From Epinephelus fuscoguttatus (Eukaryota > Chordata > Actinopteri > Perciformes > Serranidae), in NCBI RefSeq assembly GCF_011397635.1, contig NC_064761.1, forward strand, positions 27,445,643 through 27,509,642: 64,000 nt of DNA. Direction: 5' to 3'. The notes below the pieces were generated by a model. It was not told where the DNA came from, did no database searches, and was given only the letters and a program-made list of their open reading frames with translations. The position numbers and the translations under genes were made by a program. Positions 35,801-38,800 of the stretch are shown one piece after another; positions within the stretch are counted from its first letter, which is position 1, and the number at the start of each line of letters is the position of its first letter.

Positions 35801-38800
35801 GTCACTGCGGACCACTTCACCCTTTCAGTCACGACATGCCCCTGTTGCCTTCCAAATCCCGCACACTCCTAAAGCACACAGAAAACAAGGAAAACATTGA
35901 GGGCGGACTCGACGGGCGATCTGACCACAGCACGCACGGTCACTCAGGTACAGCCAGACACGCCTGCCTCACTACCAACCAGTCAGATGCACCATGTTAT
36001 GATTCTGCAGGTACGCCAGAGAGATCCGGTTCCCCAAGTCGACTGCAGCGCCGCGAAGCCCGACGCCTGAAAAGAAGGGCCGTCATATTCCTCAACGACT
36101 GATCACTGGTGCAAGCATGTGTCCGGCATACGGTTGATCTCAAAGCAGATCTGCAAGCACAGCCTGACATAGTCCCCTCACACTGCCCTCAAATTACAAC
36201 TATGTCAGCACTCTGAAGTATTTGATTTCTAAAGTTCAAGGTTTCATTTATTCAGCCATGAAACTTCAGTGCTCATGTGCATGTCATCCAACACCAATTA
36301 AAGAATGTGAAAGATAAACACAACTGTAAAAGAACCATAATATACAAAAACATACAGAGAATAAATATTAATTCCAAAACACCAAACTAATTCTTCTGCA
36401 GAAACAATAAAATAATTGTAGAAATACTGCAGTCGTTAAGTGCCATCTTTACCACATCATGTATCGCTGAGGTCTGGAGAAGCGCAGCTGATACCATTGG
36501 CTTGTGTCACGCAGCGTCGCAGAGTACATGCTCTCGTCCTTCATCAGTGGCAGTTTCCTGGTCCGGGAAAGCGAGAGCAGCCCTGGACAGCTGAGGGAAG
36601 AGTCTATCACTGCTGACTCACTATTTTTGCTCACAGCCAATTACCACAGGTGTTCTTCAATTAAATGCCATGTGCAAATGGCCCACTACTGCCGTAGCTA
36701 TGACCCATACAGGCTGTGGTGTGGTGATGCCGCGCGCAGTGTATATAACAGAGTTGGTAGTTCAGCGTGCCTAAATTCCCCCACAACATTTTTAAGTAAT
36801 TAAAGTAGCTAACTGAATGCTTACATGCACGTAATTGGTATTGAATGTAGCAGAAAAATATATTATAAATAAAAAGGTATCAATTAAGTTTTTTTATTGG
36901 TGTCGGTATGACTTAAAGTGCACTGGTATCATGATATTTAAACAATTCCCAGGATACACCAGTTCCTGCATAGTATTTTTAAAAGACTTTTATCATTAAC
37001 CTTAGAAGATTTCAGTTTGTTCAATCATTATATTTGTAGTTTCAGCTTATCTATAATGTGATACCAAATATACTGAGTGTTCTACAAGTTCAACACAACC
37101 ATTCTTCCTCATCTCTGACAAATTGTATAGTCTGTATTTATGGAAACTGTTTGTTATCAGCAATGGAATGAAGATCTTGCTCATGTTCTGTCTCGTCTCA
37201 GTCATTGCATGACTCTTATTCTCATATCCCAATCAATACTTGGCAACAAATCATGTATTAATTTGCTAACCCAACTATTAAATTTCCACAATATATGTTG
37301 TCTTTTGTTTGTCTTGTCTCGTTTAAGTTATTGCTTATTTATTGGTTTTATATTATAAATAAATTTTTGTTTTGTTTGTGTGTTTACCTGATGTGTGAAT
37401 AAGACAGCCTGTCTTTGTCTTTCACTTCCTTTGCCCCTTTCTTCACCTATTTTCCCACTGTCACCATATTGTTCAGCTTTTATGTTTCACTCTGTACATA
37501 TTTATTTACCAATAAAGTGAACAGTGCGTTCATTAAATCATAAATCTGATAAAACTGGAACAAGCAGAACATTCTGCTTGTCATTAAGACATTCACATGT
37601 CATTAAGCACAAGACACTACTCATAAAACATCCCCAAGTGTACATATGACATTAATGACACCACAAAGACTGCAACTGTAATTTCTACTTTATGTTAATG
37701 TCATATGTGTTGTGTTAATGTTGCTTATTTGTATGCATTTATATTTACATGCAAATGCAAAATAAGGAACAGAGACTGAATTATTAGTGCCTGTATTTAC
37801 TTGAGATAACTTTTGAAGTTATAACAAGTCACAGTTTGCAGTTCTCTTCTCCATAAGTCCCAATTTATTGCCTGTTTAGAGGAGACTGTGCACTACTCTG
37901 TATTGATTTAAAGGCCGGCAGAACTGAGAAAATGTGTTTCCCTCTTTGAGCGAAGTTACGCAATGCTCCTCCTGCTAACAGAGACAGGGAGGAATCTGTT
38001 TGGCATGTGTTTTCATCACTTCCTGGAAGTGTACTCATCATCCCATCTTTTACAAGAGCACCTTGTAAATCATTGAATCAGTGTCTGCATTTGCATGACT
38101 GGCATGGCCTGAAAACTTTCCATCCCTTTTCCTGAAATGCTTTTTCCTTACTCATGACTCCCCAAGGATGAAATAACAGCTTTTAGAAAGAGTGAGTGAC
38201 ATTAATGTATAGGCAGCCATATTGAGAGACTATGGGAATTCAGAGCAGCGTTCATTACCTGTTTCTTGCAACGTATTAAGTAAAGTTTTAACAAAGATAG
38301 ATGTGTGTGCTGCTTTGTTGCGTAGTTTTAATCCAGCTCTCTTTTCTCTTTCCAGGCTGGGCGTCGTCTTTGTTAGGAGGGGATGGCCGATCAGGCAGCT
38401 CCCCAGCTCTGCCCAGAAAACAGCAACCAAGAGACAAATCTCCCGGCAACCTTTTAGATGATGCACAGGATATGGGCACATTTACAAGAGACCGTAAGAC
38501 TGGCTTCTTTAGCTCCTTCATAAAGAAGAAGTCTTCCTCTTCTTCATCCTCACCATCCTCTCAGCTCCAACACAATCTCCCGACGCCACCCAAGAGGAGC
38601 AGTTCTTTCCGGGAGATGGAAACTCAGCCTCACAAGAAATACGAGCCAACCGCTGATTTCAGTGCTCCTCCTCCCCTTCCCCAGTCGGACAGTCTCGGTG
38701 GCTTCTCTGCCTCTCCGTCTCACTCCCATGGAGAGCCAACTCAGGCGCAGTCACGCTGCTGTGGGGCTGCTTTTGGACAGAAGCCCTCTGGTGGGGGACT

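Follow-up and report, generated by a model that had tools for sequence, protein, structure and literature searches.

Degenerate intronic exon duplications, in which decayed similarity to a coding exon is found within an intron of the same gene, have been catalogued as a class by Exonize (PMC12343006). Full-exon duplications occur there in around 4-7% of vertebrate genes, and partial, inter-boundary and intronic events affect significantly more genes than full-exon ones do. Pieces of sequence may also enter a genome as repair patches, and such patches without target-site duplication or poly(A) have been described, also in human cells (PMC5110952). In rice, transposon excisions come with filler DNA, 1-123 bp long with a mean of 13 bp, and with deletions in the flanks (PMC4423477). 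A partial exon I' of the dmrt1 gene of sole lies in an intragenic duplication, for which the authors propose a mobile element as the cause (PMC7605655).

The abl2 gene of Epinephelus fuscoguttatus, examined here in a window of 64,000 nucleotides (the whole stretch of DNA analysed), carries a case of this general kind. A fragment of exon 3 is found in the last intron of the gene, where it is very probably a non-functional relic that has mutated freely since it was copied. As a relic it is unremarkable, the general kind being already known from vertebrate genes, but its neighbour is informative.

The SH2 copy and its source exon

The features of the locus are collected in Table 1. The names abl2 and abl1 rest on PDB chain matches and on sequence comparison with the abl1 exon. 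On one side of abl2, at about 7.9-11.6 kb of the window, are frames that we take from their translations to be SOAT1-like (sterol O-acyltransferase), and on the other side, at about 46.5-53.6 kb, are frames that are presumably OSBPL9-like (oxysterol-binding-protein-like), again named from their translations.

Table 1. Positions of the source exon, the SH2 copy and the adjoining repeat in the window
Feature	Position	Strand	Basis or remark
abl2 exon, SH3 end and first part of SH2 (source exon)	32068..32363	+	AG/GT edges read; PDB ABL chains; Pfam SH2 E 1.3e-18
Source segment of the copy	32176..32334	+	Sequence alignment; inside abl2 exon 3
Last abl2 intron, host of the copy	35948..38355	+	GT/AG and flanking reading frames
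Possible weak 5' continuation of the copy	36448..36471	+	Partner about 32139-32175, still inside the exon
SH2 copy, main block; TGA for SH2 Trp at 36489-36491	36472..36593	+	BLASTN against 32176-32297
SH2 copy, end part after the 19-bp gap	36594..36611	+	16/18 identical to 32317-32334
5'-truncated non-coding repeat, inverted-repeat family (model 137-462 of 467)	36625..36952	+	nhmmer E 1.6e-69; border with the copy uncertain, 36612 to 36625

The main block of the copy is identical to exon 3 at 107 of 122 bases (87.7%), in a gapless plus/plus BLASTN alignment with E 3e-39, and source and copy are offset by 4296 bp. A 19-bp exon block (32298-32316) is then absent from the copy, after which the match resumes, giving 123 identical bases of 140 over the whole copy. 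An earlier, sequence-only reading of this DNA had claimed a same-strand repeat of close to 90% identity 4.3 kb downstream of its source, a claim to be given up if the identity proved near random, and the computed values bear it out. The lesions that it described are likewise seen in the alignment and the translation: the FLVRES core is intact, the SH2 Trp codon has become a stop and the 19-bp deletion breaks the reading frame. Its proposal of slippage between short TG repeats fares less well; TG does flank the gap at each end, but a repeat of only 2 bp leaves slippage unsupported. The open frame across the copy (36492-36800) is recognized as SH2 by Pfam (E 9.8e-06), and its best two PDB matches are ABL2 SH2 entries. 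No other abl2 exon stretch was seen to be repeated in the window when it was compared with itself (E 1e-3, low-complexity filter on).

The source exon measures 296 bp, and the copy corresponds to 159 bp inside it. At both sides the match stops within the exon, and neither an exon edge nor any adjoining intron has been copied. A full-exon tandem duplication comprises the whole exon with its splice edges, and both edges are absent here; what is found is an intron stretch significantly similar (E 3e-39) to a coding exon of its own gene, as in a degenerate intronic exon duplication. The expression "second SH2 exon", used in the earlier reading, is therefore an overstatement for a fragment of exon interior.

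Searching the fish's own genome (26 contigs, 1,046,998,120 bases or 1.05 Gb) returned three matches to the SH2 piece, namely itself, the abl2 exon and C18:18355430-18355546 at 79%. The 79% match is the abl1 counterpart of this exon, its residues RNAAEY, SSGINGS and GQRS agreeing with ABL1 chains. Of the three places diagnostic between ABL1 and ABL2, two show the ABL2 residue in the copy (RS.AEY, GQL) and the remaining one a private Phe; the copy hence derives from abl2. A 19-base word of the exon gave 0 matches in viral_contigs, a collection not expected to contain animal genes.

The 15 differences in the main block (3, 4 and 8 by codon position) were polarised with the abl1 exon of the genome as outgroup, which placed eight on the copy, three on the exon and four on neither branch. 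The changes on the copy are H to R, W to stop, G to W, P to L, A to V, L to M, N to S and one that is synonymous; seven of the eight, a small number, are thus nonsynonymous or stop, and a random single change in the segment is so in 275 of 360 cases. All three exon changes are synonymous, and both differences in the 18-base tail lie on the copy side. Within the limits of these small numbers, the copy shows no sign of constraint and evolves as expected for DNA free of protein constraint, beside a constrained exon. Gene conversion with exon 3, which had been raised as a prospect, is not indicated by this assignment, nor is conversion from the exon needed to account for the differences. Mis-mapping to the copy may occur with reads or probes aimed at the SH2 exon.

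Upstream in the same intron, the reading frame of exon 10 runs on beyond the donor site for 51 codons before it meets a stop (35947-36102), with poly(A) signals (AATAAA) at 36360 and 36406 downstream of this stop. Read-through of exon 10 into the intron is accordingly a candidate short isoform, predicted from the frame. The read-through peptide has itself as its sole genome match (E <= 0.001), and no short ABL2 isoform was found among the literature matches listed.

The borders of the copy and the broken repeat

The earlier reading had not included what stands next to the copy: the SH2 copy abuts a broken non-coding repeat. At least 40 other match rows to the right flank of the copy were found in the genome, 34 of the 40 beginning at 36622-36628. 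This count is a lower bound, and the family is larger than 40 rows, because just 40 of 316 candidates were scored. The 467-bp repeat model was built from 27 of the 40 rows (7 loci and 20 more fetched), and its ends, TAGGGCTGGGTAT and ATACCCAGCCCTA, are the terminal inverted repeats of a family of about 467 bp. The repeat in the window lacks the first 136 bp of this model, on its left. Among the 27 sampled relatives, 26 start at model position 52 or before and the remaining one at 125, compared with 137 for the window copy; these relatives were found by similarity to the right part and so were not chosen for their left part.

The missing left part was not found on the other side of the SH2 copy. 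It scored 15 in 36300-36471, against a control mean of 15.8 and with 1299 of 2000 controls reaching that score. The best match to the left inverted repeat in 35950-36475 covered 11 of 20 bases, where 242 blocks of the window gave best matches averaging 11.1. Elsewhere in the window, 51881-52625, 59054-59424 and 31555-31721 match their own reverse complements at 75-79% over 766, 377 and 169 columns, respectively, and are perhaps inverted-repeat transposons.

Divergence of the repeat was counted at sites on which at least 75% of the family copies agree. Of 240 such sites, 38 (0.158) in the window repeat depart from the consensus. This value falls among those of the other copies (0.062-0.195, mean 0.107) and is measured from a consensus that may not be the parent of the window repeat. 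The SH2 copy differs from its ancestor at 9 of 122 sites (the eight polarised changes and the Leu-to-Phe site; Fisher p 0.03 against the repeat), or at 12 of 122 if the four changes placed on neither branch are all given to it (p 0.15). The repeat is thus probably, though not surely, older than the SH2 copy, as 38/240 against 9/122 suggests.

Neither flank of the copy resembles what a longer duplication is expected to leave. Co-duplicated flanks that decay at the same rate as the copy were simulated for four cases (two intron flanks, with 150 bp per intron, and two exon flanks), with indel rates chosen by the analyst. For each of the four, all 300 runs at divergence 0.10 and all 300 at 0.15 outscored the observed flank, as did at least 297 of 300 at 0.20. 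The left flank (36110-36471) has itself as its only match in the genome. In an unbanded local test of the sequence beside the copy, the left side scored 10, reached by 753 of 1000 placements, with an anchored extension of 0, and the right side scored 9, reached by 962 of 1000. Random places in the unbanded test could include the source, and a version excluding near-source places was therefore run. A weak co-linear trace of the copy may continue 5' at 36448-36471, judging from a banded score of 10 that random placements attained in 9, 23 and 80 of 3000 cases under three settings; the unbanded test and the anchored extension speak against it. A permissive alignment of the surroundings of source and copy was gap-ridden and was dismissed as noise.

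There is no A tract after 36611 in the sequence, in agreement with the claimed lack of a poly(A) tail, and no clear junction microhomology was found at the borders of the copy. An 8-bp direct repeat, TTACCACA, occurs at 36449-36456 and 36641-36648. The right member sits within the repeat element and neither member is at an edge of the copy, so that we do not read the pair as a simple target-site duplication; its chance of occurrence is about 3% by the analyst's arithmetic with equal base frequencies, and the repair reading given below does not account for it.

Possible routes of entry

Taken together, the explanation that we favour on balance is that of a non-functional relic which most likely entered as a break-repair patch. 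An older repeat element would already have been resident in the last intron of abl2, and a double-strand break in it would have destroyed its left 136 bp. About 160 bp from the interior of exon 3 would then have been copied into the break as a patch, in the same orientation, and would have mutated freely since, without function. Entry of the piece during double-strand break repair is by itself a plausible but tentative step. The SH2 piece is longer than the excision fillers of rice (PMC4423477), which counts against this route, and the repeat could have lost its left end in a separate event. Moreover, deletion after a larger duplication yields the same picture as a patch.

Such a history would begin with the duplication of a larger abl2 stretch, downstream of which a repeat inserted. 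A later deletion would then have removed the left end of this repeat along with the 3' part of the duplicate, the 5' part being lost as well. The truncation of both copy and repeat at their meeting point, within 13 bp, is consistent with it, and the weak co-linear trace may extend the copy 5'. It requires further deletions on both sides, however, while no trace of the intron 2 or intron 3 flanks is seen and the repeat appears, though not firmly, to be older than the copy. A larger duplication of this sort is possible, if unlikely.

The template may also have been RNA rather than DNA, the fragment having been reverse-transcribed from abl2 RNA, and RNA-derived patches are among those described in PMC5110952. 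Consistent with this, the source falls wholly within one exon. For a random 163-bp source, 1999 of 12278 gene-body positions (16%, with exon ends approximate) would place it wholly within an exon, a share that lends the idea some weight but is not improbable, and source and target are 4.3 kb apart within one gene. The sequence of the copy contains neither an exon-exon junction nor a poly(A) tail, although a junction is not to be expected in a piece from a single exon. For the same reason, the earlier judgement that DNA duplication was likelier than retroposition does not follow, as a single-exon piece without a junction cannot separate a DNA from an RNA template. Overall, an RNA template appears doubtful.

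A more far-reaching version of the patch reading, that a transposon-site break was healed from a coding exon of the host gene, that mobile elements thus seed pseudo-exons and that the product is perhaps a rare stop-carrying exon, seems to us quite improbable. Pack-type elements in plants capture gene fragments between their inverted repeats, and the position of the copy directly against the interior of an inverted-repeat element recalls such capture. The left inverted repeat is nevertheless absent from 35950-36475, so the fragment does not lie between both terminal repeats, and the SH2 piece was matched at no other genomic copy of the repeat; capture by the element is thus very hard to credit.

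Were the copy instead a regulated exon introducing a stop codon ahead of the C-terminal tail, an AG at 36470-36471 would, if used, be in phase with exon 10, with TGA following after six codons. The splice signals around the copy appear weak, however, the tract before this AG being 58% pyrimidine and the best downstream donor agreeing with 6 of 9 consensus positions, and the copy changes like unconstrained DNA, which makes a remaining function exceedingly improbable. Assembly error can be set aside almost entirely, since the 12% divergence with directional, codon-structured changes makes a falsely duplicated haplotype unlikely and the left flank is unique in the genome.

Comparison with described systems

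A literature search found no paper on an intragenic duplication involving the SH2 region of ABL2. The earlier statement that such a duplication was not described holds, as far as that search goes, for this exact case but not for the class, which is described in PMC12343006. Nothing known about the ABL2 protein is altered by the finding. Its interest is that one genome is enough to tell where an intragenic exon copy came from, in which direction it was copied and where it ends, with a broken repeat marking the site.

Like the intronic duplications of Exonize, the abl2 copy shows degenerate similarity to a coding exon within an intron of the same gene; it differs in that it amounts to about half an exon, has no exon edges and lies beside a broken repeat (PMC12343006). 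The sole dmrt1 exon I' is also a partial, non-functional exon copy inside a fish gene, but the duplication to which it belongs spans about 10 kb and takes in introns and two more exons, whereas abl2 has one fragment of exon interior (PMC7605655). The class 2 templated sequence insertions resemble the abl2 copy in being copied from elsewhere, in having no poly(A) and perhaps in the loss of sequence at the site, to judge from the missing left 136 bp of the repeat; they also have no target-site duplication, a point on which the 8-bp direct repeat clouds the comparison. In PMC5110952 those insertions have distant templates and are known from human polymorphisms and experimental break repair, whereas the template of the abl2 copy lies 4.3 kb off and its entry would be an old event, reconstructed from its remains.
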